This document shows, in pieces, positions 4,666 to 61,905 of a DNA stretch of 64,000 nt; within the stretch, counting starts at the first letter, position 1, and each line of letters starts with the position of its first letter. The stretch covers positions 81,982,358 to 82,046,357 of the forward strand of contig CM065814.1 of NCBI GenBank assembly GCA_033398695.1. Direction: 5' to 3'. Origin of the DNA: Orobanche coerulescens (lineage: Eukaryota; Streptophyta; Magnoliopsida; Lamiales; Orobanchaceae). The notes under the pieces are model-generated. The model did not search any database. It saw only the letters and a list, made by a program, of their open reading frames with translations, and had not been told where the DNA came from. Position numbers and translations under genes: made by a program.

Positions 4666-5048
4666 ACCTTAACGTATGTTAGCCTTCATGCAGAACATAC
4701 GTAAGTATCTTAGCGTACGCTACCCAGATGTCTTTAGCGTACGCTATCATCACTGATAGTTAATTGACCTCATTCTGAACTCGATTGCGTACATTAGACC
4801 ATCAGGTTACATACGTAAGAAACACCCTTTAGCGTACGCTAGACATATTCCTTAGCGTACGTTAACAATTATTGACTTCAAAGGTGTCCAGGTTCATCCG
4901 ATGGAATCTTATCCGGACCCATGTCCGGCTGGCGCATGTCATAGCCGCCCAGTTCAATTATTGACTGTCTAACGTATGCTATGCTTCATTCGTAGCGTAC
5001 GTTAACTCTGGCCGATAACGTACATTAAGCTACATTCTTAGCGTACAT
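4666..5048. repeat. Palindrome array in U3 of LTR A (GTAC core)
   Basis: About a dozen copies of TAGCGTACGCTA, TAACGTATGTTA, ACATACGTAA and variants in under 400 bp. The shared core is CGTACG with AT-rich arms, and many variants differ by C/T or G/A changes. It sits directly upstream of the TATA box. Confidence 0.8.
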
Positions 5049-5205
5049 TATCATGTATTTGCATGGGAAAATTTACATGTTTCCATACTCACGTACAAGG
5101 ATATAAATACGAGAAATATCAGACTTCAATTATCGATATCACAATTCCGAATAATACAGGGTTCAAATACAGATGAAATACTCAATAATAAATCCGGATA
5201 TTACA

Positions 5206-6019
5206 CGTATAGACCCTTCATCAGATGTCCCGGTTAAGTCTTCGTGTCACGGTAAAGTCAAACCCTACTGTTGATTAGACTCTATACATGTGTTAATGCA
5301 AATCAAGACCGACTGATTACTAGTGTATCTAATACGACTAGATCAGAATGCTTTGGCCAAAGACTTATGATTTTATTTTCCATTAACCGTATAGGACATT
5401 CGCCTGCTCACTAACAGGAGACTGAATCCTTTCTTGACGTAAAGTAAAGACTACTACCTGCCCATATATTCCGCACTTTGAGGTTGACTCAGCAATTAAG
5501 CAAATGAGTCTAACTACTCTAATAATAAACTAAACGTCACAGGCACATCTTCTACTGAACCCTCAAGTCAAAGGTCCACGTATACTATCACAACCTTTCG
5601 ATTCGTCATCGACTCTTTTAGAGTGAATGCCGTGTGACTGAATCAAGTATGAGTCGTGTTCGAGTATACTGGTCACACCAATATACTTAACTATGCTATC
5701 AAGACATGCACATGTCTTAGCATCAGTTATACAAGTCTTACTACAAACTTAATGCCCATTTAAGTTTATTGACTTGCGAACGGTTTACGTAAATAAACTT
5801 TAAACACTTCTAGTGCATTTTCTCTTATCCGATAATGAGAATGGAATGTTCGATTTATTTACATGGACTTCACTTTAATGTTTACCAAATCAAGAATGCA
5901 TTTGAAATACAATAAACAGTGAATGAATCGTATTGCCTTTTATTAATTATTCCATAATTACTAGTACAATGCCCTACTCTCTCATCCCCTAAGTGGAATT
6001 CGAGGGCATATTCCTAACA
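5206..6019 (-). repeat. Copia L 3' LTR, U3-side part
   Basis: On the minus strand the LTR starts TGTTAGGAATATGCCC at 6019, preceded by the polypurine tract AAGTGGGAGAT (6020-6030). It is cut at 5206 by element A. Together with the right-hand remnant the intact LTR would be roughly 1.4 kb. Confidence 0.82.
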
Positions 6020-6170
6020 ATCTCCCACTTGCAGTCAATACCACACATCATGGTGTCCAATACCCATGTTATTCAGATGTCTTTCCAAGACGGCCTGAAA
6101 TAATGGCTTAGTCAGCGGGTCAGAGACATTGTGTTATGAGTCTACTCTTTGAAATTAAACATATCATATT

Positions 6171-11716: not shown

Positions 11717-12078
11717 TGTAACACCCCCGAGATATTCAAGGTATATTACAGTACCGTGGACCCCTACATGGGAACCACTAGGCTGGACACGAAATACCAC
11801 AGGAAAAACACACATCACCCAAATGAAAGTCAAGTAACATGCCCGATATAACCGGCGGAATAAGCAACACCGACAAACGTAATTAACTTCAACGAATACA
11901 AACCACAATCCGAAGGGAAAAGCCTAAGTACTCGCGAGTACAATCTATAAGTTTATAAAGTAGACAACAACCATACTGAAAAGAATAGCGTAAATAAAAA
12001 GACTCAAATACATATATCAACGACCCTGGCCAGCATCCTCGTACTGTCCCAGCGCCCGCTCGTCCGGCTGAACATAAC

Positions 12079-12921
12079 CTGAAATCTATAACAAGAATTT
12101 CACCAAAACGGGTCCCCAAGAGGGTTAGCAATTACGCTAGTACAAGTAATTAAGGCAAACCATTTTCTTACACATTTCATAGTATAATGCACCAAATTCA
12201 TTTCAAAACCAAAACCAGACATGTCTTTTCCGGAAACAAACAGTCAACAATCAATTTGCCTAGGACCGGGGTGAAGCCACTGGTCCCACTCGAGGCCTTT
12301 AAGAACCCTCCCGAGCTGGCCATATCATAAAACAAATCACGCACAGGCATCTCCTAGGACCGGGGTGAAGCCACTGATCCTACTCGAGGCCTCTAAGGAC
12401 CCTCCCGAGCTGGCTAGCGAATCAAACTCGTGAATCCAGAGTAAAGTCATAGATTCCCTCGAGGCCCCGTAAGACCCTTCCGACGTGAGAAAAGCACACA
12501 CAATATACATCACTATTTCATGCTAAGCATAAAGGTTTCCAAAAAATACTTGCCTTGAGTAATTGACGACGACACGAACGGACGGAAATCAAACACGACC
12601 GCTAGGAACCAACGAAACCGAACCTAACGATTCAAAGAATACAATCACATCCATCTCTAAACGATTACGGAAATGGAATACACCCGAAAACCCGCCTACG
12701 ATTCATGTATATTGGTACAAAAACAACAACGAGGGCGTATCGCAACCAAACCCTCTTGATTACTCAAAAGCCACGAAATACACTATAAATTCGTAGGGAA
12801 AACAAGAATACCAACAACATTAATCATATACATTATGAATTAATCAACAACACGGAACGAATCGAACAATAACATCTAAAACCCCCAAATCACCCAAAAG
12901 TAGGGTTCTAAGAGATTTTAC
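12079..12921 (-). other. Candidate LTR-embedded intron in element B
   Basis: Minus strand: donor ATCAAG|GTAAAATC at 12922/12921, acceptor ATAGATTTCAG|GTTATG ending at 12079, branch-like TTGCTAACCC about 46 bases upstream of the acceptor. Length 843 bp, against 838 bp for the equivalent in D. The tandem modules lie inside it. Confidence 0.55.
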
Positions 12922-13094
12922 CTTGATTCGAAGATGAACAATGGATGACTAGTGATAGATTGATGTTATGATGCGTGAATATACTTCTACAATTGAATTT
13001 GGGTGAAAATCGGACGAACCCTAGCTTATAAAGCCGCTCCCGGCACGAAGAGAAGAGTGAAGGTGAGAAATGAAGAAAAATCGGCCGCTGCCAG

Positions 13095-13102
13095 TTTATA
13101 TA
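13095..13102 (-). promoter_or_regulatory. TATA box of element B 3' LTR
   Basis: Minus strand reads GTATATAAACTGG, immediately downstream of the palindrome array. The sister LTR in D has CTATATAAACC in the same place. Confidence 0.7.
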
Positions 13103-13104
13103 CG

Positions 13105-13395
13105 GTCAGGTGTTACGGCCGTAAAATAAGAACATTACGGCCGTAATGTGCCTGCCATACGGCCGTAACTGGACCCTGGAACGAAACTGGGCGAAATCAA
13201 CGAAGTCAACATACGGCCGTATCAATACACGATTACGTCCGTATCAATTCATATGGCCGTAACTCATGCATGTTACGCCTGTAACTTCTCACTAGACCAA
13301 AATGCAAGAAAAAGATGTCTCGTTACGACCGTAAAAAGGAATGCTTACGGATGTAACTCTCGAGTCTTGTGGCCATAACATCACTGGCTTACGGC
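13105..13395. repeat. Palindrome array in U3 of LTR B (GGCC core)
   Basis: About eleven copies of TTACGGCCGTAA and close variants (ATACGGCCGTAT, TTACGTCCGTAT, TTACGACCGTAA, TTACGGCCATAA) in 290 bp upstream of the TATA box. The core differs from the array at the same place in sister element D. Confidence 0.88.
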
Positions 13396-13878
13396 CATAA
13401 CATGGCCTGTGAGAGCAGGCCAGAATCTGAAGTAACCACTCGATGGGAAAGTGATCGAAGAATACCAAGGTGTACCACTACCAACGAATACACTCACGAC
13501 GGCTTCGAAGTGGAAACTAAAGCGCTAAAATGCGACGTGGTTCCGACTACACGATAAGATGTCATATTAACAAACCAAAGCTTACAACACGAACAACTCA
13601 ATTATACGAATTCGTGTAACCAAAGAAATTACGAAGTCGAATGAGTTTTACGAGAATCGAACGTTCATGCAACAACCCACAACATAAAATGGAATTACAT
13701 CAAAATATCTTTGAAACTCGTCCAAAAGGAAAAACTCCAAGAACAAAATAGATTCAAAACGTCGAAACGGTTACAAGAGAGTCGCTAAAAAGGAAAACAC
13801 ACAAAAGTGAAAATACCAGAAAAAGGAAAATGCGGATATTACATTCTACCCCTCTAAAAATAAGTTTCGTCCTGAAAC

Positions 13879-21888: not shown

Positions 21889-21903
21889 CAATTAGAGGAT
21901 CCG

Positions 21904-23172: not shown

Positions 23173-23189
23173 TTCACTTCTGGACTCGG

Positions 23190-23376
23190 CTGATGTCCAG
23201 GTAGCGCACGCTATGGCCGATAGCGCGTGCTACCGAGAGGCTATTAGCGCAAGCTACGTTTCGGGTAGCGCACGCTAACGGCCCAGTAATCTGGTTACTG
23301 GACTGGGACGTTAACTTCTGGACTGTAGTTATGTCCCGTTAGCGCACGCTAACTTCAGAGGGTTAGCGCGCGCTAA
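23190..23376. repeat. Palindrome array in LTR1 (GCGC core)
   Basis: Copies of TAGCGCACGCTA, TAGCGCGTGCTA, TAGCGCAAGCTA and TTAGCGCGCGCTAA, interleaved with CTGGACTG/CTGGACTCGG boxes, ending 12 bases before the TATA box at 23388. Confidence 0.88.
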
Positions 23377-23387
23377 CACTCCCTGGC

Positions 23388-23395
23388 TATATAAA
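23388..23395 (+). promoter_or_regulatory. TATA box of LTR1
   Basis: CTATATAAACC directly downstream of the palindrome array, the same as in LTR2 apart from neighbouring substitutions. Confidence 0.72.
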
Positions 23396-29630: not shown

Positions 29631-29919
29631 TGTAATATCTGCATTTTTCTTTTCCCGGTATTTTCATTTTTTGGTGTATTTCTCATTTGTAGCGACCCTC
29701 ATGTATCTTTCAGTGTATTTCTTCCACCATCTATTGATCTGATTCTCCTAATTGTTATGCGGAACCGCCATTTCGGGGTTGCCGTAGATACATTCTATAT
29801 TATGATGCATTTTGAGATGTTCTGTTTGATGCTTCGTTTGTGTTTTAGTGTTTCGGACCGTTGTTACCCTGTGCCTAACGTGTGCCCATGTTACTTTATA
29901 GCACGTTCTAATCATCCTT

Positions 29920-30318
29920 CAGTAGCGCAAGCTATGTTTGTTTTGTAGCGCGTGCTAGCGAGTCTGTCCAGTACTGGACAGTTTGCTACTGGACTCGGTC
30001 AGGTGCCCAGGTAGCGCACACTATGGCCGATAGCGCGCGCTACCGATACGCTTTTAGCACACGCTACGTTTGGCCGATAGCGCGCGCTAACGGGGTCAGG
30101 TGAGTACTGGGTAGTTCACTTCTGGACTCGGCTGATGTCCAGGTAGCGCACGCTATGGCCGATAGCGTGCGCTACCGAGATGCTATTAGCACACGCTACG
30201 TTTTGGGTAGCGCACGCTAACGGCCCAGTAATCTAGTTACTGGACTGGGACATTAACTTCTGGACTGGAGTTATGTGCCGTTAGCGCACTCTAACTTCAT
30301 AGGGTTAGCACGCGCTAA
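29920..30318. repeat. Palindrome array in U3 of LTR2 (GCGC core)
   Basis: Twelve copies by eye: TAGCGCACGCTA, TAGCGCGCGCTA, TAGCGTGCGCTA, TAGCACACGCTA and others, at irregular spacing. They alternate with CTGGACT or GTCCAG boxes, and the array ends 12 bases before the TATA box. Confidence 0.9.
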
Positions 30319-30329
30319 CACTCCCTAGC

Positions 30330-30337
30330 TATATAAA
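30330..30337 (+). promoter_or_regulatory. TATA box of LTR2
   Basis: CTATATAAACCAGGG, at the downstream border of the palindrome array. Confidence 0.72.
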
Positions 30338-30511
30338 CCAGGGAGTTGACCCAGAACAGTTCACTTTTCTTTTTTTCTTCTTCCTCCTTGAGTTGGGCGA
30401 CTCGGGTGATTTGGGGCGATTGAAGTGGGGCGATTTTCATCATTTATTCAAGATCTTGAGTCTCTAACACCAGATTATCATCATTTAATCATCTCTACCT
30501 CTTGAATCAAG

Positions 30512-31349: not shown

Positions 31350-31710
31350 GTTATGAACATCTGGACGAGCGAGCACTGGGACAATACGAGGATGCTGGCC
31401 AAGGTCGTTGACATGTGCATCGAGTCTCTTTATTTCCGTTGTTTCCCTTTGATATGGTTGTTGTCTACTTCTGAGACTTATAGATTGTACTAGCGAGAAC
31501 TTAGGCTTTTCTTTTCGGATTATGTTTTGTATCCGTGGAAGTTATTTATGTTTGCCATTGTTGATTATTCCGCCGTTGTACCGGGCGTGTTATTTGATTT
31601 TCAACTGGATAATGTGTGTTTCTACTGTGGTGAGTTGTGTCTAGCCTGGTGGGTCCCATGTAGGGGTCCACGGAACTGTAATACACCTCGAATATCTCAG
31701 GGATGTTACA

Positions 31711-35423: not shown

Positions 35424-35918
35424 CTAGCGCACGCTAGACTCAAAAATTAGCGCACGCTAACGGGACATCTCTGCAGTTTAGTCGAGTTCGAAGTTACCTG
35501 AAGACAAGTCATATGGTGAAGATAGCGCACGCTACACATAAAGCATAATGCACGCTATCGAAGGTTATTTTACCGTTGTGAAGATATTCAAACTCAGAAT
35601 GACATATGCATTGACATATGATTAGCGCATGCTACTGATGATATTTAGCGCACGCTAAATAGCATTTTGAATACAAGTCAATCAGAACATTGGAAGATGT
35701 TGAGTCAAAGTCATAAAGTTGGAACGGTCAGTTTGACAAATCATGCAACGGATACATGGTTAGCGCATGCTACGAAGAGAAGTTAACGCACACTAATATG
35801 TGTACTTAACGTATGCAATGAAGAAGCTAACGCACACTAAGGAAGAGAGACAGTAGCCACTGGACTGAAGATACAAGCGATAGCGCACGCTATCAAAAAG
35901 AGCTAGAGCACGCTAGCA
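35424..35918. repeat. Palindrome array in U3 of LTR N
   Basis: About twelve copies: TAGCGCACGCTA, TTAGCGCACGCTAA, TAGCGCATGCTA, TAACGCACACTA, TAGAGCACGCTA. The last lies about 40 bases before the TATA box. A CACTGGACTG box lies between copies near 35858. Confidence 0.88.
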
Positions 35919-35956: not shown

Positions 35957-35964
35957 TATAAATA
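35957..35964 (+). promoter_or_regulatory. TATA box of LTR N
   Basis: GGCTATAAATACC, directly downstream of the palindrome array in the copia LTR, the same arrangement as in the gypsy LTRs. Confidence 0.72.
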
Positions 35965-36506
35965 CCACATCCTTGGTATTAATCCATACAACAACATTGA
36001 GCAATTCATATATACTTGTTATATCATTGTAAACATTATAGTTGTTGTTCTTGAGCTTAAATTCAGAGTGATTGAGTGTGATACAATAAATCATACACGA
36101 GTGAGAAAAAGAAAAGATACGATTGGATTCAGTGTTATTAAGATCAAGGATCCGGCATTGTTAGAATCGCAATTGCTATCTTAGTGAGGTTTATCTAGTA
36201 CCGATAGACAGCTAGAGTGGTTGATTCCTTGTCCAATAGAAAAGAAAAACGGTTTAACTTGGACCGATAAAAAGATAAGTAAGAGAACGGTTTACTCGGA
36301 CCGATAGAAGACGAGCTTGTAACAGTAATCCCTCGACCGATAGAAGAGATGTGCAGATCTTTATATCTTAAGCCTAAGGAAAAAGATAACAAGAGAGGAC
36401 GTAGGCACGTTTGGCCGAACCTCTATAAATCCTTGTGTCATTTTATTTCCGCTCTTTATATTTACGCTTCCGCACAATGGTGTTAAAACCGATAATTGCT
36501 CCAACA

Positions 36507-39545: not shown

Positions 39546-39554
39546 AAAAAAAAA

Positions 39555-40178: not shown

Positions 40179-40607
40179 TGTAACACCCCCAGATTTAACC
40201 GGAAATATTACAGCGCCGTGGGCCCCGAGATGGAACCCACAAGGCTAAAAGAAATTTTCGCAAACATTAACAAATGCCCAAGAGGCCAACGACGGTACTA
40301 TCTTTAAAATTTCACAAAGACTTATAAAATCCATTTATCGAAAACCGTCGTAAAAACTCATTTGAAATCGTAAGGCCAACTGCCGACATTCAAAAGTTTA
40401 GAAAACGATTTCCAAAGTAACCTCAGTTACCAGATACCAAAAGAGCATTTCAAAATACTCACGCAGCGGAAAAAGACCAACCATAAAGATACTCTAGCAA
40501 TGAATACAAGAACCAATCAAGAAACTCAATACACACAACATGTCCTAGCCGGTATCCTCCAGAAGCTCATCTCTTCACGACCGCTACAAGCTCGATACTC
40601 CAAGAAC

Positions 40608-42868: not shown

Positions 42869-43065
42869 CTCAAGAACAAAAATAACCCAATCAAACCCTT
42901 CAAGAATCATCCATAATTCCATATCCAAGCCTAAAATCCAAGTCCTCAAGCTCAAAATCGACTTAGGAAGGCCAACATCTCTCTCTCTCAAAGTTTGAAG
43001 ACGAAAACGAAAAGAAACGTCGAAGGAAATGTAAGACGGGCATCTACTTATAAAACATTTCTGTT

Positions 43066-43450
43066 CGTTACGTACGTAACACACCAAGGTTAACGTCGTA
43101 GCACGCATTACGTCGTTAGCCATCCTTGATAGCGTCGTAATGCTAATCCCAAAACTAATCGTCCGCTTTGTTAACATGCTTACGCATTTAATGTTTCCTT
43201 CATAACGTCGTAACATGTACGTTGACTTGCTACTGAAAATTCTATTTAACGTCGTTATACACTTCTCGTAGCGTACGTAATGGCCGGGGTTGACTCGCCT
43301 GTCCACATCCGCCGCCGACATCGGGTCCCACCTGCCGACCATGACTCGGTCTGTCCGATTCCTTCGTTACGTGCGTAATGCTTTAGCCATAACGTCGTAA
43401 CACAACCAATTTAGCGTCGTAAGTCTTCAACATTAGCGTACGCTAAGAAT
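43066..43450. repeat. Palindrome array in F 3' LTR
   Basis: TTACGTACGTAA, AACGTCGTAAC/TAGCGTCGTAA variants and a perfect TTAGCGTACGCTAA near 43434. Lies between the LTR edge and the TATA-like site on the minus strand. Confidence 0.8.
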
Positions 43451-43749
43451 TCTATACTTAGCCAATTTCAATCAAGTTACTTTGTCTCGACATATCGAAA
43501 ACACATATATACATACCGAATACATATACGAATCCAATAACATTCTCATACGATATACCCAATATCAAAAGTGTGATAACACGATACACGATATCCTCAA
43601 TGCAACTGTCGACCAGATACGACAATTATACCGATACCGACATCTCAGTCCTTTATTTATTTTATCCATACTTTACAGATTCCACGCTGTACAATATAAC
43701 TCGGATAAAATAATATCAAACAACAATAGTAGAAATTCCGGATATTACA

Positions 43750-46295: not shown

Positions 46296-49200
46296 TGTAA
46301 CACCCCCAGATTTAACCGGAAATATTACAGCGCCGTGGGCCCCGAGATGGAACCCACAAGGCTAAAAGAAATTTTCGCAAACATTAACAAATGCCCAAGA
46401 GGCCAACGACGGTACTATCTTTAAAATTTCACAAAGACTTATAAAATCCATTTATCGAAAACCGTCATAAAAACTCATTTGAAATCGCAAGGCCAACTGC
46501 CGACATTCAAAAGTTTAGAAAACGATTTCCAAAGTAACCTCAGTTACCAGATACCAAAAGAGCATTTCAAAATACTCACGCAGCGGAAAAAGACCAACCA
46601 TAAAGATACTCTAGCAGCGGAATACAAGAACCAATCAAGAAACTCAATACACACAACATGTCCTAGCCAGTATCCTCCGGGAAGCTCATCTCTTCACGAC
46701 CGCTACAAGCTCGATACTCCAAGAACCTAAAAAGAAATCCCACGACGGGGTCAGCCATAATATCCAATCATGATAACCGTCACATCACATTCATAATTAC
46801 ATACCAATGAGAATACAACATAAGAATACAACCAACGTAATCTTACCGCCATAACTTTACTTACTCAAGTAATTCTCATCAGAATAACCATTATCACAAT
46901 TCACATCCTGTATTCGATTAACCGATAAACTCGAACATAATATCTGTATGGTACCTCAAACAATACTCAAGATCCTCAAACTATCATAACCAACTCACGA
47001 TACGGAAATCTACCATTTCTGACCAATACGATCCATCGAATAATATCATCAAATCCCAAGACGATAACCGATTGTCCACCAAAGACAAGACCAAAGAAAA
47101 TATGGAACATACCTCGAGATATGATGTGCCACGATAATCATATCAATCTAATCCGAGATCAGAACAATGCAATACGGACACGGTCCTAACACAAGACCTA
47201 CAAATGCATACTCACATGACCACGTCAATATGCTCAGTAACAATAACAACTATGTATACTCAATGGAAATCTCATGATCCAGCGCCCTCAGCATAGATCC
47301 CAAGATGATCCTACAAGATCAACACGAGGTGGATAACCAACAATATACATATGCACAACAATAACACAATACTGGGTAATCCAACGATCCAGCGCCCTCA
47401 GCATAGATCCCAAGATGATCCCGTCGGATCAACACGAGGTGGAAAAACCCGTCCAATGATCCAGCGCCCTCAGCATAGATCCCAAGATGATCCCGTCGGA
47501 TCAACACGAGGTGGACATCCGATCCAGCGCCCTCAGCATAGATCGCGCGATCCCATCGGATCAACACAACATAAACAACACAATATGCATACACATATGC
47601 AAAACAATATGTTCATCATCATGAACAACGCAACATGAACGACAATATGACAAATCAATTAAGACGACCTCATGTTCGACAACATGAATGATAATACGCA
47701 TGATCAAATCACTAACTCTAATTAAATCGATATAAGATACTTGCCCCGAGTCCTTCGGGAGAAATCTCGATGTCCAATCATCACCGACGATTATCCTCAA
47801 TGCTCGGCGATCCAAACGAACAATAAACTATAGATACTCATATCCTCGTCTTTACCATAATGTAACCTCGATACCCAAATATGCCAATAACCGAAATAAA
47901 TCACATACATTATGATTTAACTCCCAGAATCGGAATGACAACATATAATCATTGCTATATGCATTATAAATGAAATGAAACTGAAACCATTCATTAAACA
48001 TTATAACTGAGCAAGTAATAACTTGCCTCGATACCGATACGACGATGATGAAGTCGTTACCAATTCCATTGTCATCATCTACAAGTTCCTCGGTCCCGAC
48101 CAAAGCAATTCACGAACATCCTCGAACACGACCGCAACATCCGGTTATAATCACCGATCAATAATCTCAACCTATCGAAGTAATCAAATAACACATATCC
48201 GATAACAATTAACAACCGACACGACCAACTAAATCATCTCAACTATTCAACGATATCTACAATACAAACTACAACTCGATGATCAAAATCAATCAACACA
48301 ACCGATCAATAAACCCAACGGTTCCACAACTATCCTGATTAACCACAAGTCCGAATAATCCAATTCAAACAATTACGAATTCACAACCACAATGCGATTA
48401 CGGATACGAGCGTAAAGGAAATCATATTCGACGAACAATCACAAACTTTCCGGATTCCAAATTGATATCATGATTCGTATTTCATTAAGAACATACGAAT
48501 TCTACCACTACAACCAACGAATATTCGATCTTCATATATAAAAATACCGATAATTCAATATACGATCGTCTTGCTATGTTAAATTCATCAAAAGTTCCTC
48601 AAGAACACTAAGGGATTCGAACTCATGTTCATAACTATTAATACAACATAATTCGATATCCTTTAACATGAAGATAATCTTCCAATTCGTAATCCAAGTA
48701 ATGAATCATCGTATTCTTCAGTATACACTCTACATAACCCCAAGGATTGTAGCAACAACTCCCTAATCATCATCATACGGATCAAATACGGATAATAATA
48801 CCAAGAACATCAAGAACTCTATGATTTCATAATCATAATCAACATATTCAAGGTATAAACCATCATTTCACCATCTTCCTTCAACATATAATTCATATAA
48901 CCTCAAGAATCGAAACAACAACATCTTAATCCTCTTCATACGAATCATTTACGGATAACAATACCAAAATCCGAAATCAAAGTGAAGAATTCAACAACAT
49001 ACCTCAAGAACATAAATAACCCAATCAAACCCTTCAAGAATCATCCATAATTCCATATCCAAGCCTAAAATCCAAGTCCTCAAGCTCAAAATCGACTTAG
49101 GAAGGCCAACATCTCTCTCTCAAAGTTTGAAGACGAAAACGAAAAGAAACGTCAAGGAAATGTAAGACGGGCATCTACTTATAAAACATTGCTCGTTACG

Positions 49201-49878
49201 TCGTAACACACCAAGGTTAACGTCGTAGCACGACACGACGTTAGCCATCCTTGATAGCGCATTTAATGCTAATCCCAAAACTAAGCGTCTATTTTGTTAA
49301 CATGCTTACGTCGTAATGTTTCCTTCATAACGTCGTAACATGTACGTTGACTTGCTACAGTAAAATTCTATTTAACGTCGTTATACACTTCTCGTAGCGT
49401 ACGTAATGGCCGGGGTTGACTACTTTGTCCACATCCGCCGCCCGACATCGGGTCCCACTGCCGACCATGACTCGGTCTGTCCGATTCGCCGTTACGTACG
49501 TAATGCTTTAGCCATAACGTCGTAACACAACCAATTTAGCGTACGTAAGTCTTCAACATTAGCGTACGCTAAGAATTCTATACTTAGCCAATTTCAATCA
49601 AGTACTGCTTTGTCTCGACATATCGAAAACACATATATACATACTGAATACATATACTGAATCCAATAACATTCTCATACGATATACCCAATATCAAAAG
49701 TGCGATAACCTGATACACGATATCCTCAATGCAACTGTCGACCAGATACGACAATTATACCGATACCGACATCTCAGTCCTTTATTTATTTTATCCATAC
49801 TTTACAGATTCCACGCTGTACAATATAACTCGGATAAAATAATATCAAACAACAATAGTAGAAATTCCGGATATTACA
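46296..49878 (-). repeat. Element F 5' LTR, 3583 bp
   Basis: TGTAACACCCCCAG ... GGATATTACA, with a candidate intron at 46727-49002 (donor TTGAG|GTATGTTG, acceptor TTTCTTTTTAG|GTTCTTGG on the minus strand), four module repeats and a palindrome array at 49190-49573. The central 1.5 kb is almost identical to the other LTR. Confidence 0.9.
49190..49573. repeat. Palindrome array in F 5' LTR
   Basis: Same positions as 43066-43450 but with rearranged motif variants, for example AGCGCATTTAATG at 49256 and TACGTCGTAATG at 49307, where the other LTR has these two forms in swapped order. Ends with TTAGCGTACGCTAA. Confidence 0.8.
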
Positions 49879-50625: not shown

Positions 50626-50976
50626 AGAGTATTTTTTTAATATTGTTCTTAAAATGAAATCGAAATATGAAAATCCTACTCCCAGCGCACGTTATACGTT
50701 ATATATAGTGCGCGCTAGCTAATTAGTTCATAAAACTGAATCAGTTACTGGAAAGAATGCTCAGATCTATATTTGTCCCCGATAGTGTATGCTAAATAAA
50801 GAAGTAGCGCACACTAATGACCATCCAGTATACTTAAAAGTCAATACCGATCCTCTTTTATTATCTCATAAACCCTACTCTCTAGGAGATCATAATCCTC
50901 AAAATTAGCCACCCAAACTTCAAATTAAACCATTAAATCTTCATTTTATCAAATAGTATACTCATTTCAACCTTCA
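50626..50976 (+). promoter_or_regulatory. Inter-ORF region of K with palindromes around a TATA-like site
   Basis: Between pol and the third ORF: AGCGCACGTTA (50684), TTATATATAG (50699-50708), TGCGCGCTAGC (50709-50719), then GATAGTGTATGCTA (50784) and TAGCGCACACTA (about 50806). These are the same motifs as in the LTR promoters, here internal and 250 bases upstream of an ORF, so they could be a promoter for it. Confidence 0.45.
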
Positions 50977-51850
50977 ATGGCAAGAATATCGAGGGCTCCA
51001 ATGAAGAAACCAAGCAAGTGACCCAGAAGTTGTCATTGATGTTACCGATTTTGTTTTTGATAATAATGACTTTGGCTTAGAAATTCGATTGTTGTTGGTT
51101 GCGTTGACAAAATGTATAATGCCAAAAGTTAACACGCAACATAAATTAGTCAGGGTGGACAAACAAGTCTTGTATCATGTGTTGAATGAAGAGCCAGTTA
51201 ATTTTGCTCACTTTAGTTTTCAGTGTATTCTCTCTAAAGCCAAACTTTTTCGGTCCAAGAAATATGCCTCTAAAACAGGGAAAGCCGGAATGCCTTTTAG
51301 CTCTTTTCTTACGAAAATCTTCAAATTTCATAATGTTGATTTGTCGAATGAAGTTTCCATATCGGTCTCTCGAGGTTATGAAACTTTAGATTCGTCGCTC
51401 AAAGATATGCATTATGTCCAAACTTTGAATCTAGGATAGGAACTTTTTTCTCATATTTGAGTAAAGACGATAGTGTTCATAAGGGGACACGCATGCCGAC
51501 TTCTAAGGAAAGAATTACTAGGTAAGGTCTGGAGATTTTGAGAGAACTGCAAACTGGGACGTTGGTGCGTAAACCATAATCCAAAGGCAAAAGGCAGATG
51601 GGTGAAGAATATAGTGAGAGAGAGGAAGATGATCTCGTAGTCTGGATGCGCAATCTTGAAACAAGTCAAGTTAAAATTTGTGATGATATTAGAGCCATTC
51701 AGACAGAAGTTTAGGAAGCTAGGGACAAAATCTATTCAGTCAAACATCTCCTCGAAGAATACATTCGTTTCACCAATCATGCGTTCTCATTCCCCACTCG
51801 TTCCTCTGACCAAATCCTTAAAATTCATGGTTTGATAACTATCTAAGAAC
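50977..51850 (+). pseudogene. Third ORF of copia K, plant-transposon-protein-like (broken)
   Basis: Lies between pol and the 3' LTR, where some Sireviruses carry an extra (env-like) ORF. It starts MARISRAPMKKPSK at 50977, then a frame change leads to about 140 residues (51018-51437) with HKLVRVDKQVLYHVLNEEP and SKAKLFRSKKYASKTGK, resembling the domain often annotated as putative plant transposon protein. A second part with stops follows and ends in a heptad-like helix (WMRNLETSQVKICDDIRAI). No signal peptide or membrane segment seen, so envelope function is not supported. Confidence 0.55.
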
Positions 51851-52354
51851 AATGTTTTGTATGTGGTCTGGTTTAAAACTTATTTTTGATGTTTATGTTT
51901 CTTTTTCATGTTTTTCTCACATATTGTTCATTTGGTTTGGCTGGAAACTTATATGTGGTTCGATAATTTTGATGTTCATGTTTCTAGACTCATGATGAAT
52001 ATTGTTGGTTTTTCATATATCAATATTATGTGCTGTTTATTGTATTATTGCACTTTGGTTTCTCACGTCCATCTTTTTCTGAATTTTAGATTCTAGCTTA
52101 AAATTTAACCTATAAGCTGTTTTTCTGCACAGTTAAGGGGGAGCTTCGTTTCAGGGGGAGTTATATCTTTTTTACCTTTTTGCTTCTGGTAAAAAGGGGA
52201 AGAAAGCTAAAACTTTGATGATTCGAATTTCTGACATTTTACAAGCTTCTAACGAAATCGAACAAAGCATTCACTTTGATTCGAATATTTTGTCATAAAA
52301 GTTTTTGTAGCTATTTTTTATTAAATGTTTTGTCATCATAGAAAAGGGGAAGAT
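51851..52354 (+). other. Copia K 3' untranslated region and polypurine tract
   Basis: Contains AAGGGGGAGC and CAGGGGGAG blocks near 52135-52160 and ends in AAAAGGGGAAGAT (52342-52354) immediately before the LTR, the likely plus-strand primer. Otherwise T-rich and non-coding. Confidence 0.75.
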
Positions 52355-52554
52355 TGTTGAACAAATCATTTTTGATGATGTATTTTCTCAAAACAAACAT
52401 TTGAGTGAAACAAAATATCAAAACCTATTCAGACAAAATCGACGCGTATTACATCAGACAAGAACTCTAGAAATAACGTGAATAGCGCATGATATTTATA
52501 TGCAATAGCACACGCTATCGGGCTCGTAATTTCTAGTATTTTGAAGTCAGTAAC
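52355..52554 (+). repeat. Copia K 3' LTR, first part
   Basis: Starts TGTTGAACAAATC after the polypurine tract. Contains TAGCGCATGATA and TAGCACACGCTA. Interrupted at 52554 by solo LTR G; GTAAC (52550-52554) is duplicated at 58385-58389. Confidence 0.85.
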
Positions 52555-53592
52555 TGTCACGGCCCCTTATTCCTAAGGACGGCACAGCCGGAGCGTGACC
52601 CGGGGTAGGAATTAAGAAGTGGGGAAGAAAGGGGAAAACATACGTTTCATAAGGAATAGGGGTGGATTTCCATGAATAACATATCAAGGCATCATGAAGG
52701 GGAGTCAATCCCGTGGGAATGACTTAGAATCTAAAGTAGAATACATAGTTATAATATTAGCCTTGAAGTTTAGAAAAAGGCTTCATAGCATCTAACAATC
52801 GGCATAACTTAGAAAGCAAAATCATAAAGTGTTTGCAGCGGAAAGATATGGTTGGTTACATATATGAAGATATGTAACCAGGGCTTACCATTGATCATAA
52901 ACAAAAGACTTCCACTAAACACCCTCCGTCACATCCCCTGCTCAACCTGCACATTTTAAAACATATACAGGGCTGAGTACAACGTACTCCGTGAACATAT
53001 TGCTGAAACATAAAACATGCTTTCGTATTTATCATCATGCATATAAGCAGTAACACATTGGGGTTTTAATAAAAGCCTATGTTCACTAAATTATTTCGTT
53101 TCGTATCATATATTATCAGATTCACCATATCCAAAATTACGTCGGGGAAGGTGGCCACCTCCCGCGAGCGTTACTCCCCGAGATTGGCCACTCCGAAGAG
53201 AGCTCAGAATCCAGAGTACTGTGTACACTAACCTGTAACACCCCCAAAATCAAACCGGGAGTATTACACGCCGCAGACCCTCTCCGTGAGGATCCACCAG
53301 GCTAGAGATCAAAACCACGCAATAAATTATATACCGACATGATAAAATACCAAATCCATAGACCAACTTGGTCTTTCGTCACTAACATACAAGTCAAAAA
53401 TACACATTCCTATCTCGACTCATATCCATGCAAGGGTAAAATACTCTCACAAACAAAAAGTACGACAGCGGAAAATACCATACACGAACTCCGACTAACT
53501 GCATCCAAAAATGGCCTTCATGTGATTAGTATCATTCGCCTTCCATCATCCTTCACGCCGATCCTGTGTTTTGCTCCCAGACCTGCATGTAC

Positions 53593-55250
53593 CTGGATGC
53601 AAAATAGACATCCACCCCCCGAATACTCGGGGGTTAGCAAAACTATACTGTTTTGCTAGTACAAGTATAAAATGCAAATACGAGCCATACACAACACATT
53701 CCGAGAATACAACAAAAGACTTCCCGAGATATTTTTTAATTAAAAATAGTTCAAGTCTTGAAAGTAGAAAAGAAACAAGTAAGCACTTTGAAAACACTTC
53801 CAAATCTCGGGAGTTTTGAAAACATTTGTGATTGAAAAGTTCTTAATTCCTTGAAAGCCACTTAGGGTCACAACCCCAAAGTTCATTTTTCCAAAATGCA
53901 AATCCGTTAACAAAACACAGGGTCCACGACCCAACCATCCCGGTCACAACACACAGGGTCCACGACTCGATCATCAACTTCAATTCACTTCCAAAGACAT
54001 ATTACACATAATACATTATTCTTATGCCATTTTAGCCAAATACCAAGACTCGATATATAATGTCTCTCGACCCCGAGCACCAAGCATTGTGATACTCTGG
54101 ACATATCACATTAATCATCAGTACAAACACTCTGTCAATTCTCGCGACCCGGTCCGGCCCTCAAGCCACCAAGTCCCTGTGCACCCCGTCGAGCGACCCC
54201 AAGTGAGAATGCCCACTCGAAAGTAACTCTCGCGACCCGGTCCAACCGCTAAGCCACTAGGTCCCTGTGTGACCCCGACGAGTCAATCCCCGAGTGAGAG
54301 TACCCGAAAAAAACCTTACAACTCTCATCAGTTCTCATTTCCAAAACCACAATCCTCAAGAGTCAATCACAATATATATAGTCGAGGTATTTTGCTAGAA
54401 TGGCCAAACTAGCCAACACATACTCACGACCCAACATTACTACTATCCACAAGGAAGCACACTTATCTCAACAACACCGAACGACACAACCTATATCACA
54501 CAACTCACACATTCACCGATAACCACATGACTCCACGCACAATTCTTAACAAAAGGATTGAACCTTAAATTACCGACGACATAATCACACATAATCACAT
54601 CACCCGAAAGTAAGGAGATCCTATACTCAACACTAACACACATAGTCAATTAAGCACATTAAATCCCAAACACAAGAGTCGTCTTTTAAGAAAACCATGA
54701 TTGTAAATATACCGATTCTTTTGAAAAATGGTTGTAAACATTCATTTAGCACATATCGTCGAGTACCAACCATTATATCCACAAAACACGTAATGTATGG
54801 GCAAGATACTTGCCTCGATAATCGATACCAGATACTCCGATGAACACGGCTCAACCGGGTAATCTCAAACACCTACAATTCTCCGACGGAAATAAACGGT
54901 AACACAACCGATCGGGAAACGACGAATGGAAGAGTTCCGACTCGAGTTCTTCGCAAGAAACCTGACCCTAACATCATGTCATCAATAATCAACGATCGTA
55001 CGAGGAAGAATAATCGTAGAACGCTCAAAACCCCCCTCTAAGAACTTTCACCGGACACCTTCAAGGCGTTGATTAGGAACTGAACAAAACGATTAATATT
55101 TAGGAATCAAACCATGGAACAACAAGGAAATTTATAGGATGTAACTTAATAATAAATAATCCATCACTAATCTAAGTTATTACGGATCAAACGGGTGAAA
55201 TCAAGCAAAACCCCTAATTTTCCATAAACTAAGGTTTTAGGAAAACTAAC
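53593..55250 (-). other. Candidate LTR-embedded intron in H
   Basis: Minus strand donor ATCAAG|GTTAGTTT (55250), acceptor TTTTGCATCCAG|GTACATG (53593), branch-like TTTGCTAACCCCC at about 53630-53640, 41 bases before the acceptor. Next to it a CCCCCG/CGGGGG hairpin. 1658 bp. Confidence 0.5.
54143..54315. repeat. Tandem modules in H
   Basis: Two units starting CTCGCGACCCGGTCC and ending in AGTGAGA-type sequence, about 85 bp each, inside the candidate intron. They correspond in position, not in sequence, to the modules of A, B, D and F. Confidence 0.75.
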
Positions 55251-55420
55251 CTTGATTCGCTGGATTGAAGGATGTTATGGAATGATCAATCGATGATATG
55301 AACTCCATAACTTCGTGGATTCATAGTATAACAACATATCTTCGACTTCTCCAAGACTCCAGCCGCGGACAGGAAAGATAGAAAATAAAAAACAAGTGAA
55401 AATATGACTGCTCGGTCATG

Positions 55421-55427
55421 TTTATAC
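55421..55427 (-). promoter_or_regulatory. TATA-like site of H
   Basis: Minus strand CCAGTATAAACATG at the border of the palindrome array. Confidence 0.5.
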
Positions 55428-55435
55428 TGGTGCAG

Positions 55436-55856
55436 CCTAGCGTGCGCTAGGCTGCCGAGCTAGCGTGCGCTAACAAGCGGTCATGTTCGAGAATGTTCAG
55501 CCGGGGCCCGCGTTGACCTATCCTGCCGACCTGTCCTGCTGTCCAAAACCTTCCTGTCCGACCGCGGTAGCGCGCGCTGTGCAGGGCCTTGCGTGTGCTA
55601 GCCGGTCCGTCCAGAACCCCCTGGACTAGACTGCTCGGTCAGGTAGCGTGCGCTGGTCGTCCGATAGCGTGCGCTACACCGGCCGATTAGCGCGAGCAGC
55701 GACTGACAGTAGCGTGCGCTACCTGCCGATCCTCCCCGAATCCAGAACCTCAAAAACCTCTCTGGCCAGCCTGATAGCGTGCGCTGGTCAGACGAACAGC
55801 GTGCGCTACTCCTGCCGAGTTAGCGCGCGCAGCCTTTCGACTGTGGCGTGCGCTAT
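55436..55856. repeat. Palindrome array in U3 of H (GTGC/GCGC core)
   Basis: About twelve copies: TAGCGTGCGCTA repeatedly, with TAGCGCGCGCTG, TAGCGTGCGCTG, CAGCGTGCGCTA and TTAGCGCGAGCAG. CTGGACT, GTCCAG and CTCGGTCAGG boxes lie between copies, as in LTR D. Confidence 0.88.
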
Positions 55857-58389
55857 GACGGTTCCTGCCGCACCTGCCCAGCCAGTGCCCGCACCCGTCC
55901 GGCCAGTGCCCAACCGTCATGACTCGACGACTCGATTTTTCGAAACCACACGAAACGAACACGACCACCGCTCGAGGACACAACATCCATCCGGAATGAA
56001 AACAATGGATAACAAATCACCCCATACGGCCATAAATCCAAAATTAGTAGTCGAGAAAAATAATACCAGCGCTCAACAACTGGGAAATATCCGAAGAAAA
56101 ATCCAAAATAACCAGAACGAAAATCATGGGTATTACATAACCCTGGCCAGAAACCTTTGTCTAGCTCAGGATCCGATCATTTCATAGGTTGGCAATCCAA
56201 TAGTGATAAATTCATAAGAATCCACATAAAAGTTTTTATGCATCATATTCATTGAAATCATAATTTGCTTGTAAAATATTTCATCAAAATAGAGCAAAGC
56301 TTAAATCATTTTCGTATAGAAAGCCCACCTGGACAAGTAATAAACGCAAGCAAAAATGATTCTCATCTATTTCTTACGTTTCAGTCTGTTGCTCCACCTT
56401 TCATCCTAAACAACTAAGTTTAGCAGTCGACCGAGCTTAACGAAGTCTAACGGACAACGGACTCGATCTACATGTTTGGATTTTAGAGTTTTGCATTCGA
56501 CTTAAGTTTAAAAATAAAAGCTATGATTCTATTAGAGAACCTAGCTGACCATATAACATATAAGGATACTAACAACAGTAACCGATACTCGATTCCGTTA
56601 CACATTCCTTGGTTCGAAAACCATCATCAAAGACTTAACATAATCATAACATAATGTGCATCAAGGAAGAAAAGAATTAGCATTCTATTAATGCACATAA
56701 GAACAGGATAGTGTATCTTATACCACTGGAAAACCACTGAAGTCTAGCTTCATGTCTATTTTACGGATCTCAAAAATATTAAACGTGGATAAATTCATGG
56801 CCGTTTCCGTGAAGTGTAACGAAACTGCCAATATCCGGCGAAAATGGTAAAAACATCATATTAACCTAGAGCTCGTTTCTAGCAACGAAAACCCTAAACA
56901 TGTAAACTCTAATCATGCATATCATACTTATAACACATATATGAGTCGACATACAAGCATGCTTCTCGATATTACCAACTCCATTTCATAATTTTTTTCT
57001 TTTGAAAACATGAATACTTACTCATTTTATTTCTCAACTTTAAATCTTCAAACATCATTAACATCACGTATCATCAAGCATCAATTGTTACCAACATCAA
57101 ACAACACACTTAACATACACTCATGTTGATAATCAAAGTTTTGGTTCTAATATGAAAGTGACCTAAACATGATTTTAAAAACTTCAATACATATTATGCT
57201 CTTTAGTTACATCAAATATTATCTAACACATTTTCAACTTCATAAATCTAACTTCATGCCTTTGTTTTCAAATAAATTTCCAAAACATTTTATAAAAATC
57301 TAACAAAAATATATAATGTACTTCTTTCATACATCATCAAAATTATCAAGTCACTTTTGAACATATATCAACATATCAAGAACTAAGCATGATTCTTTCT
57401 TACTTTCAAAACACCAAACATTTTATAAAAATTCCATAAATTCATCATAGCATCATATCATCATATAGAAACACATTGTGTAAGAAAATCATAAGAAAAA
57501 CAACACATGATTGGGTTATAAAACCCAAAGAATTTAGGCCAAGATATGAAATCAAAACCATGATTAAAACTTGTTTTAAACACTTTCAAGAACCTTAGAA
57601 TCAACTTAAAAACAACATACAAAATATTATAACGTTAAACGTAAGGTCTTTATATATTTTTCCAAATCTTAAAGTTAGCTAAAACCTATTTCTACTTGGA
57701 TAGAAATGAATAGGAGAATGTAACTTACTTAAATATGAACTTTGTTTCAAGTTTGGAACACAAAATGAGCTTGTACTTGAGTTATAATGGAAGAACAATG
57801 GTGCTTCAATGGTGAAGGGGGACGGGGGCGGCCAAAGTGAGAAGAAAAGAGGAAGAAGATGAATTGAGGAGGAAAAATGAAATGGAGGTGATGTCCCTTT
57901 ATATACTATGTTAACCCTAGACGTCATCATAAATCGGTCGAAGAATATTTTACGTATCGCTCCTCCGCAGATAAAATTACTCGAGTATTGTGTGTATGTC
58001 ATATAGTTGAATTATAGTGTCGCACTTACAGCTTAAAGTCGGAGAAAAGTTTCGCGATTTACGGAACGCGAATTATCCGAGAAAACGACTCGACATAAAA
58101 TATACCCGAAAATTCAAAAAGTAAACTTTTGAAAATCGTGCTCGTAACATAAAAGTGGTGTATATATAAGGCGATGGAATCACGATTCTATCTATCGAAG
58201 CATAAAATCAAAATCAAAAGAGAATCCCTAGCAGATAACCGAACATCCAATTTCTGAATTAAAAACGTGTAAATAGTTCTAAACTTATTCCATTAGTCAT
58301 AATCTTATTATTTGTGAATGCAAAACCCTAATGTCGCACTTGAGGTTATAATAATTCATGCATAGAAAAGGCCGGGGCATTACAGTAAC

Positions 58390-58563
58390 ACATGTAATAT
58401 GCTACTCCAAGTTTCAACATGAATTCAGTAGCGCACGCTACTTACAGACAATAGCGCACGCTACCTATTACTCCAATGAAACAAATCTGTGAGGACAGTA
58501 AGGTTTCTCAAATTCAGTAGCGCAAGCTACAATCTCATCTAATGTATGCTAATGGGTCAAGAC
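58390..58563 (+). repeat. Copia K 3' LTR, second part
   Basis: Continues the LTR after G. Contains two TAGCGCACGCTA copies, TAGCGCAAGCTA and TAATGTATGCTAA. Cut at 58563 by fragment I; the remaining LTR is not found in the window. Confidence 0.75.
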
Positions 58564-59025: not shown

Positions 59026-59228
59026 TTAGTGCATGATTAGTGCACGCTATCTTAGCTATTAGCGTGCGCTAACTGCTAGGGACAGAGCGTTCTATCCTCC
59101 ATTGGACTGCCTCATTTGCACACGCTAATGTATTGATTAGCGCACGCTAACGGGTTGAGGCAGAAGCTTCTGGACTGCATTTTTAGCAGTTAGCGCACGC
59201 TACGCAAGTCCGTAGCACACGCTAAAAC
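59026..59228. repeat. Palindrome array in fragment I
   Basis: Seven copies: TAGTGCACGCTA, TTAGCGTGCGCTAA, TTAGCGCACGCTAA, TTAGCGCACGCTA, TAGCACACGCTAA and decayed ones, with TTGGACTGC and CTGGACTGC boxes between them. Confidence 0.85.
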
Positions 59229-60239
59229 TCAATTTCAGATATCTTACCTTCTTTCTCTTCTTTGGCAATCCGCGGCGACTTGAGGCAGAGGAGTTTATAT
59301 TCCAGCCAGATATCATCATCCATATACATTTTTGAGTTCCTAGTACGAAGTTATCATCATCTAATCATCATTCACCGTTCTAATCAAGGTTAGATTTCTT
59401 AAAAATATAGTTTTGGGGAAATTGAGGATTTTGATTGATTTCCTTTGTTGGCTCGATTCTCTCACGCAATCCGGATTTAATGTGATTTAACCTAGATTAA
59501 TGATGGATTATTGATTATTAAGTTGTATTCTACCAATTTTCTTGTTGTTCCATGGTTTGATTGCTAAGGATTCGTCGTTTTTTTGAGTTCCTAATCGACG
59601 CCTTGAAGGTGTCCGGTAGAATGTCATAGAGGGGATTCGGGCGTTCTATGATTATTCTTCCTCGTACGATCGTTGATTTATTGATGATATGATGTTAGGG
59701 TTGAGTTCCTTGCGAAGATCTCGTATTGAACCCTTCCGTTTTTCGTCATCTTTATTTTCTAACATCAAGGGTTTTGAAGCTTTCTGATCGATCGTGTTCT
59801 TCAGAATATTCGCGGACGATTATCGAGGCAAGTATCTTGCTCATACATTTCGTGTTCCGTAGATGTAATAATTCATAATCGACTATGTGTGCTATTTGAG
59901 TACTCAAAATGAACCCTCAAAAGGAACGTTATAATCTCATTAATGGTTTTCTTTCAAAATGCTTGAGTGCTTTGTGAATAAATGAGTTTTACGGATACAT
60001 TGTATTGTGGTTGTAAATTGAAATACATTTACTTCATATTGTGTGGTTATAAAAGTTCTCTTCCCTTGTTAAGGGTTGTATGTTAGAATGTGTATTTATT
60101 TGGTGAGTGCGTAAGGTTGTGTTATATTGTTTACTGACTCCATTGTAAGGAGGTGGTGCTATTTGGTGTTATTCGAGAAGTATATCTGCTCGTGGTATGT
60201 GAATGTGGTGTTGTTGATATGTGTCTCGGATTGTTGTGT

Positions 60240-60500
60240 TGTTCTGTGGAACTAGGTAGGGTCCGACGGGGCTTCTGGAGTTCGATACTTGATTAGTACG
60301 AACAATATATGTGTGTACCAGGTAGGTTCCAATGGGGTCTCTGGAATTCGATACTTGATGAGTATGAAACGTACTTATGTGATGCCATGTAGGGTCGGAC
60401 GGGGCCTCTGGAGTTCGTTACTTGATGAGTACGAACCGTATTTGTGAGATGCCAGGTAAGGTCGGATAGGGCCTCAGGAATTCTCTACTTGATGAGTACG
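60240..60500. repeat. Four roughly 60-bp tandem modules in fragment I
   Basis: Units contain AGGTAGGGTCCGACGGGG, CTGGAGTTCG and TACTTGATGAGTACGAA. The GGGTCCGACGGGGCC part is shared with the modules of LTR D, the rest is not. Confidence 0.85.
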
Positions 60501-61111
60501 AATAATATTTTGTTGTCAGATTGCATGACAAGTGATTATATTCTAGCTGTCGAGAACTGAATAAATCTTTGGGCTGTGACCCTAAGTGATTTTTGAAAAT
60601 ATGAGGACTTTTTAATCCTAAATATTTTTCCTCTAAAAACTTCCGAGATTTGTAAACCGCTTAAAAATCGTTTACTTGCTTTATTATTTTCATGCTTTCA
60701 GATTGTTTTGCTCAAATGAAATATCTCGGGAAGTCTTTCATTGTGTTTGATTGGTTGATTATTTTGGATTATTATATTCTTGGAATATGACGTGTATGGC
60801 CCGTAATTGCACTTTATACTTGCACTAGCAAAATTCTAGTTTGCTAACCTCCGCGTAATCGGGGGGTGGATGCCTGTTATTGCATTCTGGTACGTGGAGG
60901 TTCTTGAGGAGCAAAACGCAGGATCAGTACGAAGGATGATGAAAGACAAAACATACTAATCACAAGCAGGACACTAATTAGTACTGTTTGTCGAATTGTG
61001 TTTTTTTTCTTTCCGCTGTAGTGTTTTCCCATCCTATGGTGTTGAACAAATTATTTTGATGTTGAAAAAAAAGACTCAAACATTGTGTATCTCAAAATTC
61101 AAGTAAAACAG

Positions 61112-61905
61112 AGTCTAGCGCATGCTACAGATAAGAGGTAGCGCAAGCTATTGAAGAACCTACCTGAAGACAGAAACCTATCTGCAAAGCACTTGGAATC
61201 CCACCTGATGCCCCAGCGCACGCAACCTTCTCTTACTAGCGCACGCTAGTTGATCATTTTAGCGCACGCAAGAGAGTGCCTAGCGCACGCTACCTGTTCG
61301 TATTCTCAAGACAGTAAGGTCTGGACTCAAATCTAGGCAACAGGAAGCGCACGCTATGAAAGATAATAGCGCATGCTATTTCGGTCAGTAACGTATGCTA
61401 CAGATGATATTTTATGTATGTTACCTGGAAGCATTTTGAAGACAGTAGGCTCTGGAACTCAAGGAAGGAAGCAGGAAGCGCATGCTAAGAAAGGATGTAA
61501 CGCACGCTATGAAGAGCTACTAGCACACGATATCAATACACATTAGCGCACGCTACATATTCAAAATCCGACCATTAAGCCATTCAACTGTTGGGACGAT
61601 AGAGTCAACAAAGGAATCACGGAAAATCTAGAAAGTAAATCTTGACTATCTAGGGCACGCTATGGATGCACATTAGTGCATGCTAAACTCAAAATTTATC
61701 CGTTGGAGAGAACGTTGGAGACAAAGCCATATTAAAGTATTCAAGTCAATAAAGTAAGCTGACCAAATCGACAGCGCACGCTAAAGCTATTGTCTAGCAC
61801 ACACTAGACATATCATATTACCGTTGGAAAAGTTTCAAGACCGTTCAATTCAGCAAAGTCAAACATCGATAGCGCACACTATAAGGAATTATTAGTGCAC
61901 GCTAA
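61112..61905. repeat. Palindrome array in U3 of LTR O
   Basis: More than twenty copies of TAGCGCACGCTA, TAGCGCATGCTA, TAGCGCAAGCTA, TAACGCACGCTA and half-decayed forms over 800 bp. They end about 40 bases before the TATA box, with GTCTGGACTC and GCTCTGGAACTC boxes between them. Confidence 0.9.

Follow-up and report, generated by a model that had tools for sequence, protein, structure and literature searches.

The DNA analyzed here is a 64-kb window of Orobanche coerulescens contig CM065814.1 (positions 81,982,358 to 82,046,357; coordinates below count from the first letter of this stretch), and all motif, spacing and enrichment figures refer to it. The window consists of plant-like repeat DNA carrying gypsy and copia elements, and in the long terminal repeats (LTRs) and promoter regions of these elements lie arrays of short palindromes, most of them closely followed by a TATA-type box. 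The arrays were first described in a sequence-only reading of this stretch, which was right both about their existence and about their coordinates, apart from a further array (G1, 3628-3819) to the left of the point at which its description began.

Palindrome arrays and the elements that carry them

The palindromes fall into three classes, with the consensus sequences TAGCG-YR-CGCTA (class 1, the 12-mer TAGCGYRCGCTA), TTACG-GC-CGTAA (class 2, TTACGGCCGTAA) and TWRCG-T-CGYWA (class 3, the 11-mer TWRCGTCGYWA). The arrays and their TATA-type boxes are as follows.

3628..3819, minus strand: array G1, sites at 3628/3651/3674 and 3762/3785/3808, in 23-bp steps
4650..4657, minus strand: TATA-type box assigned to LTR A, TATAAATA, 12 bp beyond the last palindrome
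4670..5050, minus strand (inferred): array A, class 1 with TA centre, assigned to a gypsy LTR; 7 matches with at most 2 mismatches
13095..13102, minus strand: TATA-type box of LTR B, TATATAAA, 10 bp beyond the last palindrome
13113..13400, minus strand: array B, class 2, in gypsy LTR 11717-13843
23202..23375, plus strand: array C, class 1, 6 sites, in a gypsy LTR truncated at 23171 and ending at about 24770
23388..23395, plus strand: TATA-type box of LTR C, TATATAAA, 12 bp beyond the array
29923..30317, plus strand: array D, class 1, 12 sites, in gypsy LTR 29631-31710; partly a 132-bp duplication
30330..30337, plus strand: TATA-type box of LTR D, TATATAAA, 12 bp beyond the array
35425..35915, plus strand: array K, class 1, 11 sites, in a promoter region assigned as copia-type
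35957..35964, plus strand: TATA-type box of K, TATAAATA, 41 bp beyond the array
43045..43052, minus strand: TATA-type box of the first large retrotransposon derivative (LARD)-like array, TATAAGTA, 15 bp beyond the array
43068..43445, minus strand: first LARD-like array, class 3 and 12-mer variants, 11 sites, in LTR 40179-43749
49196..49571, minus strand: second LARD-like array, class 3, 10 sites, in LTR 46296-49878, with TATAAGTA 12 bp beyond
50683..50816, plus strand: array K3a, two pairs of class-1 sites (4 in all), following a region similar to copia pol
52483..52517, plus strand: K3b, one pair, in what is probably a fragment of an LTR; the region left of array K has a match at 52326-52359
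55419..55426, minus strand: TATA-type box of LTR H, TATAAACA, 11 bp beyond the array
55438..55855, minus strand: array H, class 1, 11 sites, in LTR 53234-56137, with no coding region seen
58429..58529, plus strand: array F1, class 1, 3 sites
59038..59224, plus strand: array F2, class 1, three pairs at 22 bp
61116..61904, plus strand: array O, class 1, 19 sites, in a copia element with gag at 62681
61943..61950, plus strand: TATA-type box of O, TATAAATA, 38 bp beyond the array

The edges of the LTRs were read from their TGTAAT...TTACA ends, together with TGGTATCAGAG, which resembles a primer site and follows LTRs C and D. Gypsy coding domains adjoin B, C and D, while H and the LARD-like element were called gypsy-type because of their LTR ends, and F because of its relationship to H (74% between 59488-59953, downstream of F2, and positions 54688-55179 in LTR H) and to the leader of C/D (72-73%). 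The assignment of K as copia-type is based on the match of 36295-36452 to 62293-62456 (73%), ahead of the copia gag of O, and on copia integrase and reverse transcriptase similarity downstream, from 37080. For a copia integrase the top match was 51% over 98% (among the best 120 of 1108 matches), and for a gypsy protease/reverse transcriptase region it was 47% over 57%, with others up to 72% over about one third (among the best 120 of 6790); in both sets the matches that carry a name are mostly eudicot.

Only the right edge of LTR A (5205) was found. Since a second TATAAATA lies on the plus strand at 5102, 51 bp beyond the other end of the array, the orientation assigned to array A depends on this edge. 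A relaxed scan resolved the array into two runs (4785/4807/4830/4853 and 4970/4993/5016/5039) with steps of 22-23 bp. G1 is possibly part of the same gypsy LTR as A, and its context includes minus-strand gag and protease/reverse transcriptase homology at 200-2425.

Twelve arrays were scanned for TATA boxes (A, B, C, D, H, both LARD-like arrays, K, O, G1, K3a, and F2). Nine have a box 10-41 bp downstream, against a background of 0.073 boxes per 50 bp on one strand. In K and O the box is 38-41 bp away, and in A, B, C, D, H and both LARD-like LTRs it is 10-15 bp away. Because C and D duplicate one another, as do the two LARD-like LTRs, the nine TATA-bearing arrays amount to about seven separate cases.

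Anatomy of the palindromes

The exact class-1 12-mer occurs 32 times in the window. Allowing at most one mismatch there are 67 matches, compared to 0.1 in shuffled DNA, and allowing at most two there are 94, compared to 2.4 (means of 10 dinucleotide shuffles). An excess over shuffled DNA, which the sequence-only reading had proposed to seek genome-wide and upstream of LTR TATA boxes, is thus present at the scale of this window. The formula which that reading gave for the palindrome, TTA-S-G-NNNN-C-S-TAA, has 0 exact matches and gives way to the 12-mer as the right description; nor is there a single form, as class 2 contributes 11 sites (at most 3 mismatches) at 13113-13400 and the class-3 11-mer has 11 exact matches versus 0.1 expected. 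Ninety of the 94 class-1 matches are inside 13 of the 14 array intervals (4.56 kb in total, 19.7 per kb), and four lie in the 59.4 kb outside them (0.067 per kb); as the intervals were drawn around the matches, this ratio shows clustering and is no independent test. The fourteenth interval, the class-2 array of B, holds zero class-1 matches.

The flanks of class-1 sites hold little information, at most 0.26 bits per position, and the central dinucleotide is YR in 79 of 79 sites (a set from which array C was omitted as a copy of D, and in which the LARD-like arrays were not counted). The match selection ignored the two central bases but used the outer ten, so the conservation of the latter is partly by choice. 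When 85 class-1 sites (nine intervals, 3600-61920) are read in the direction assigned to transcription, 61 have a CA centre, 13 TA, nine CG and two TG, and the bias toward CA recurs in D, F, H, K, and O. This directionality may reflect an asymmetric complex, or sites descended from each other; we put no probability on the bias because related elements are not independent.

Among substitutions at the two CpGs of the site, C to T and G to A changes predominate, a pattern that would fit methylation. A separate explanation is that CpG density itself has been selected, as a methylation target or CpG island, with the palindrome incidental. The CpG observed/expected ratios of 1.37-1.94 in A, B and the LARD-like LTRs are in line with such selection, but the ratio is 1.02 for the whole window and only 0.98-1.20 in D, H, F2, K and O, and CpG density leaves the symmetry, the YR centre and the spacing unexplained. 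We consider this explanation very improbable.

Spacing of the sites and helical phase

In clusters of at least three class-1 matches, 44 of the 76 neighboring centre-to-centre gaps are 21-24 bp (a scan that includes the copies C and the second LARD-like LTR), whereas random placement gave a mean of 6.5 such gaps and a maximum of 16 over 2000 trials. Gaps of 12-18 bp and of 25-43 bp were absent from this class-1 scan. The same spacing is found in the other classes: the class-2 gaps in B are 22, 22, 54, 22, 18, 22, 50, 22, 22, and 22 bp, with seven of ten at 22-23 bp, and in the two LARD-like LTRs the class-3 gaps are at 22-23 bp in six of ten and six of nine cases, respectively.

Over distances of 30-200 bp the sites keep a period of 10.95 bp (cosine 0.61 versus 0.19 in the null, reached in 0 of 1000 null sets, with C dropped). 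The phase was unchanged when D, K, H, or O was left out in turn (0 of 500 null sets each), and it was reached by the null in 2 of 500 sets for the copia-type arrays alone and in 1 of 500 for the gypsy-type arrays alone.

Near-constant spacing, along with the genuine 132-bp duplication in array D, is what would be expected of decayed minisatellites, in which 22-23 bp units spread by slippage and the palindromes are the sole recognizable remnant. The spacers, however, are unrelated: 25 spacers of 11 bp have a mean identity of 0.28, and only 1 of 300 pairs agrees at 8 or more of 11 positions. Moreover, of the 26 larger gaps, 14 are closest to an odd multiple of 10.9 bp and 12 to an even one, which argues against a simple lattice of tandem 22-bp units, and one spacing is common to three sequence classes. 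Spacers that diverged while the palindromes stayed intact would in themselves require selection on the palindromes. On the grounds of the unrelated spacers and the balance of odd and even multiples, a minisatellite origin was rejected as the sole cause, and we rate it as highly improbable.

Exchange of the promoter region between related elements

The elements B and D are closely related, being 87% identical in pol, 86% at the LTR start (72 columns) and 86% in R/U5 (1202 columns). Their U3 cores, in contrast, align no better than shuffled DNA (score 23, with 50 shuffles reaching 29), and the same is true of the 150 bp from the TATA box onward (score 20, shuffles reaching 23). Both U3 regions nonetheless hold palindromes, of different classes, and each array ends 10-12 bp before TATATAAA. 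To judge from these alignments, this comparison suggests that the promoter was replaced inside one family with its geometry kept. Apparently the U3 is a module that can be exchanged or evolves fast, with its geometry kept and the recognized sequence free to change.

A single mobile insert shared by all of these LTRs, which the sequence-only reading had named as an outcome that would overturn its proposal, is not supported and was rejected: with the palindromes masked, no similarity between the arrays of different families was detected (E <= 0.01, 12 regions). The similarity that was left comprised C-D, the two LARD-like LTRs, leader and R-U5 stretches, and a single match of 34 bp that lies outside the arrays. 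Without masking, D and H are 77% identical over 57 bp (E 1.75e-5), a match that is gone once the palindromes are masked, and H scores 36 against the U3 of D (shuffles up to 24), while A against D (29, shuffles at most 26) and A against B (27, at most 26) are barely above shuffled DNA.

Interpretation of the arrays

We propose, with a probability of roughly 0.6, that the arrays are upstream LTR promoter modules made up of phased sites for a putative cooperative dimeric DNA-binding factor. Each dyad site of 11-12 bp would be bound by a dimer of a sequence-specific factor, adjacent dimers some two helical turns apart (22-23 bp) would bind cooperatively on the same face of the DNA, and the bound dimers would act on the TATA box that follows. 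The phase, the dyad symmetry and the unconserved spacers fit such side-by-side dimers, and the occurrence of dyad symmetry, two-turn spacing and helical phase in both gypsy and copia-type promoters lends support to the earlier suggestion of a shared cis-module recognized by a dimeric factor. We infer that the factor, or a set of paralogous factors, is of host origin and that its effect is activating; activation is preferred over silencing as a first choice because the arrays sit before TATA boxes.

Several observations weigh against this proposal. All figures come from a single window. The sequence-only reading had several of the arrays end shortly before a TATA box, which holds for the nine arrays described above, but G1, K3a and F2 (3 of the 12 tested) have no such box within 120 bp. 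The 61:2 ratio of CA to TG centres gives the sites a direction, which would not be expected of a simple symmetric homodimer. The phase is broken by gaps of 17-19 bp in B, C, D, and one of the LARD-like LTRs; taken alone, G1 lacks the 10.7-10.9 bp phase (0.09) and A peaks at 11.7 bp, each with few distances. Distances within an array are mutually dependent and so are not independent trials, and several shorter or longer spacers recur in C and D because of duplication. Finally, five of the eight arrays first folded (A, B, D, H, and F2) have folding z values of -4.7 to -6.9, and that of G1 is -2.4.

The strong folding of these five arrays would be expected if the palindromes acted as RNA or DNA hairpins feeding small RNAs, as has been suggested for maize Sirevirus LTRs, where palindrome-rich LTR regions are reported as hotspots of small RNA mapping in three Copia families (PMC5311732). 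The property is not common to all arrays: array O, with its 19 sites, folds little better than shuffled DNA (z of -0.61 as a whole and +0.83 for its first 13 sites), and the values are -1.5 and -1.8 for the LARD-like LTRs and -2.0 for K. Compensated changes account for only 1 of 72 changed symmetric position pairs (among matches limited to 2 mismatches), and a phase of about 10.9 bp is a feature of double-stranded DNA rather than of a hairpin. An RNA hairpin is therefore less likely as the common function of the arrays, and we regard the small RNA explanation in general as improbable.

A different possibility is that the arrays dock an epigenetic regulator. This could be a VANC-type anti-silencing protein encoded by the element itself, or a silencing factor of the host for which arrays mark retrotransposons. 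VANC21 is described as binding a short motif that is dense in the non-coding parts of VANDAL21, with its localization depending on motif density (PMC5735166). Class switching with constant geometry would suit an arms race, and the changes at the CpGs of the sites are those expected of methylated sites. In the main text of that paper, however, VANC targets are reported as tandem repeats and are not described as palindromes, and the 11-bp spacers in our arrays are unrelated. Neither a transcription-factor-type DNA-binding domain nor a VANC domain was detected in the 30 open reading frames (ORFs) scanned by Pfam (a subset of the ORFs, several elements being incomplete); the matches were to retroelement domains and zinc knuckles, with Transposase_32 and DUF6837 below the cut-off. 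The position of the gypsy LTR arrays directly before a TATA box also points to a promoter function, and we consider docking of this kind rather unlikely.

A broader scenario may be put forward tentatively, and we hold it to be somewhat less probable than not: that within one plant genome, gypsy and copia elements converged on a common two-turn, one-face promoter architecture read by one family of cooperative factors, and that the palindrome was switched among three classes via U3 replacement while the geometry was kept. Such switching, if true, would be expected of paralogous factors with a single fold that compete or escape silencing. We make no claim for a particular factor, since none of the plant sites considered (NAC, SBP, VOZ, bZIP, LBD, and FHY3 CACGCGC) fits all three classes, and BZR1 CGTGYG fits only the CA- or TG-centred sites. 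Few plant retrotransposon families have a known switch-on trigger. A motif whose symmetry, spacing and phase have been measured, and which gypsy and copia-type elements share, offers a direct handle on the protein.

Other features of the window

The LARD-like element (40179-49878) is non-autonomous, with 3.57-kb LTRs that are 97.4% alike and a target-site duplication of GTAAC, and no Pfam match above the curated cut-off was found in the three internal ORFs scanned. It is inserted in a segment of copia pol, which in turn forms a tandem duplication (38227-38865/39551-40178). Between 21886 and 32949 the gypsy coding and LTR pieces are ordered integrase-LTR-gag...integrase-LTR-gag, as after recombination between elements. 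Tandem repeats are present at 33194-33426 (60-bp units), 44204-44455 (58 bp) and 60254-60502 (67 bp). An ORF at 51005-51439, between K3a and K3b, has a match to Transposase_32 (putative plant transposon protein) below the cut-off (27.1 versus 45 bits).

Comparison with known systems

VANC targets of Arabidopsis resemble the arrays in being dense short motifs in non-coding transposon DNA that are needed for recognition and differ between related elements (PMC5735166). They differ in that the VANDAL elements carry their own VANC gene, and that the motif YAGTATTAY is non-palindromic and was spread by tandem repeats (PMC5735166). A spread of that kind was not seen here, where the 11-bp spacers are unrelated, except for the 132-bp duplication in D.

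A physical parallel is provided by the tandem dimer sites of Epstein-Barr virus (EBV) EBNA1 and of Kaposi's sarcoma-associated herpesvirus LANA (LBS1/2). The EBNA1 dyad-symmetry sites are 21 bp apart, centre to centre, and are bound cooperatively (PMC3798644). These proteins serve viral episome maintenance in animals, and the analogy is one of action, with no kinship of the proteins claimed. The string TAGCGTGCGCTA is also present in three EBV papers, as a text match.

A search with the paired class-1 motif returned one viral contig and one bacterium. The viral contig (IMG/VR L001) carries TAGCGTGCGCTA-N11-TAGCGCACGCTA at 12696-12730. This is the same palindrome with its copies 23 bp apart, and it stands upstream of an ORF on the minus strand (11780-12679). 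This single pair is possibly an operator pair, as in paired bacterial and phage operators. The bacterial contig, from Aurantiacibacter xanthus (L002:396-429), also has the paired motif. For the exact class-2 pair there was no match in viral contigs. When the motif strings were searched as paper text, six papers contained one of them, but no plant or transposon titles were among these, and a literature search by titles and starts of abstracts, with subscription journals mostly outside its coverage, returned no report of such arrays in plant gypsy LTRs.

Of the systems described in plants, the repeated motif (RM) of Sirevirus LTRs is the most relevant. The RM is dyad-symmetric and present in at least eight copies per element, lies for the most part within the first half of the LTR, starting 200-400 bp in and extending for 300-500 bp, and forms CpG islands shortly ahead of the TATA box; it was reported to be specific to Sireviruses and missing from classic copia elements, and 12 of the 13 motifs listed have a CGG-CCG core (Bousios et al., 2010; PMC2829016). 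The sequence-only reading knew of no described family with the combination seen here, and this is only partly upheld: the combination does differ, but a palindromic, multi-copy motif in CpG islands upstream of a TATA box had been described in these elements.

The likeness extends to the dyad symmetry (imperfect here, as the class-1 centre is often CA), in some of the arrays the copy number and position in the LTR, and the nearby TATA box, although our distances run from the last palindrome rather than from the edge of a CpG island and apply to 9 of 12 arrays. D, B, H, and the LARD-like LTRs have 10-12 copies each, F1 has three and F2 six. The arrays start 292 bp into LTR D, 282 bp into H and 304 bp into the LARD-like LTR, within the RM range, whereas those of B (443 bp) and A (155 bp) are outside it. 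The CGG-CCG core is lacking in classes 1 and 3, while class 2, in B, has CGGCCG. The hosts are gypsy LTRs as well as copia-type elements, with one motif across superfamilies, and the sites are phased, whereas no statement on spacing was seen in the passages of the RM report consulted (PMC2829016). Because classes 1 and 3 lack the core and the hosts include gypsy elements, we have not filed the arrays as Sirevirus RM. Compared to the RM, what is new is the presence of the arrays in gypsy and copia elements of one genome, mostly without the CGG-CCG core, and with a measured phasing. The Sirevirus palindromes thereby become the subject of a testable rule, namely whether they too are spaced two helical turns apart.

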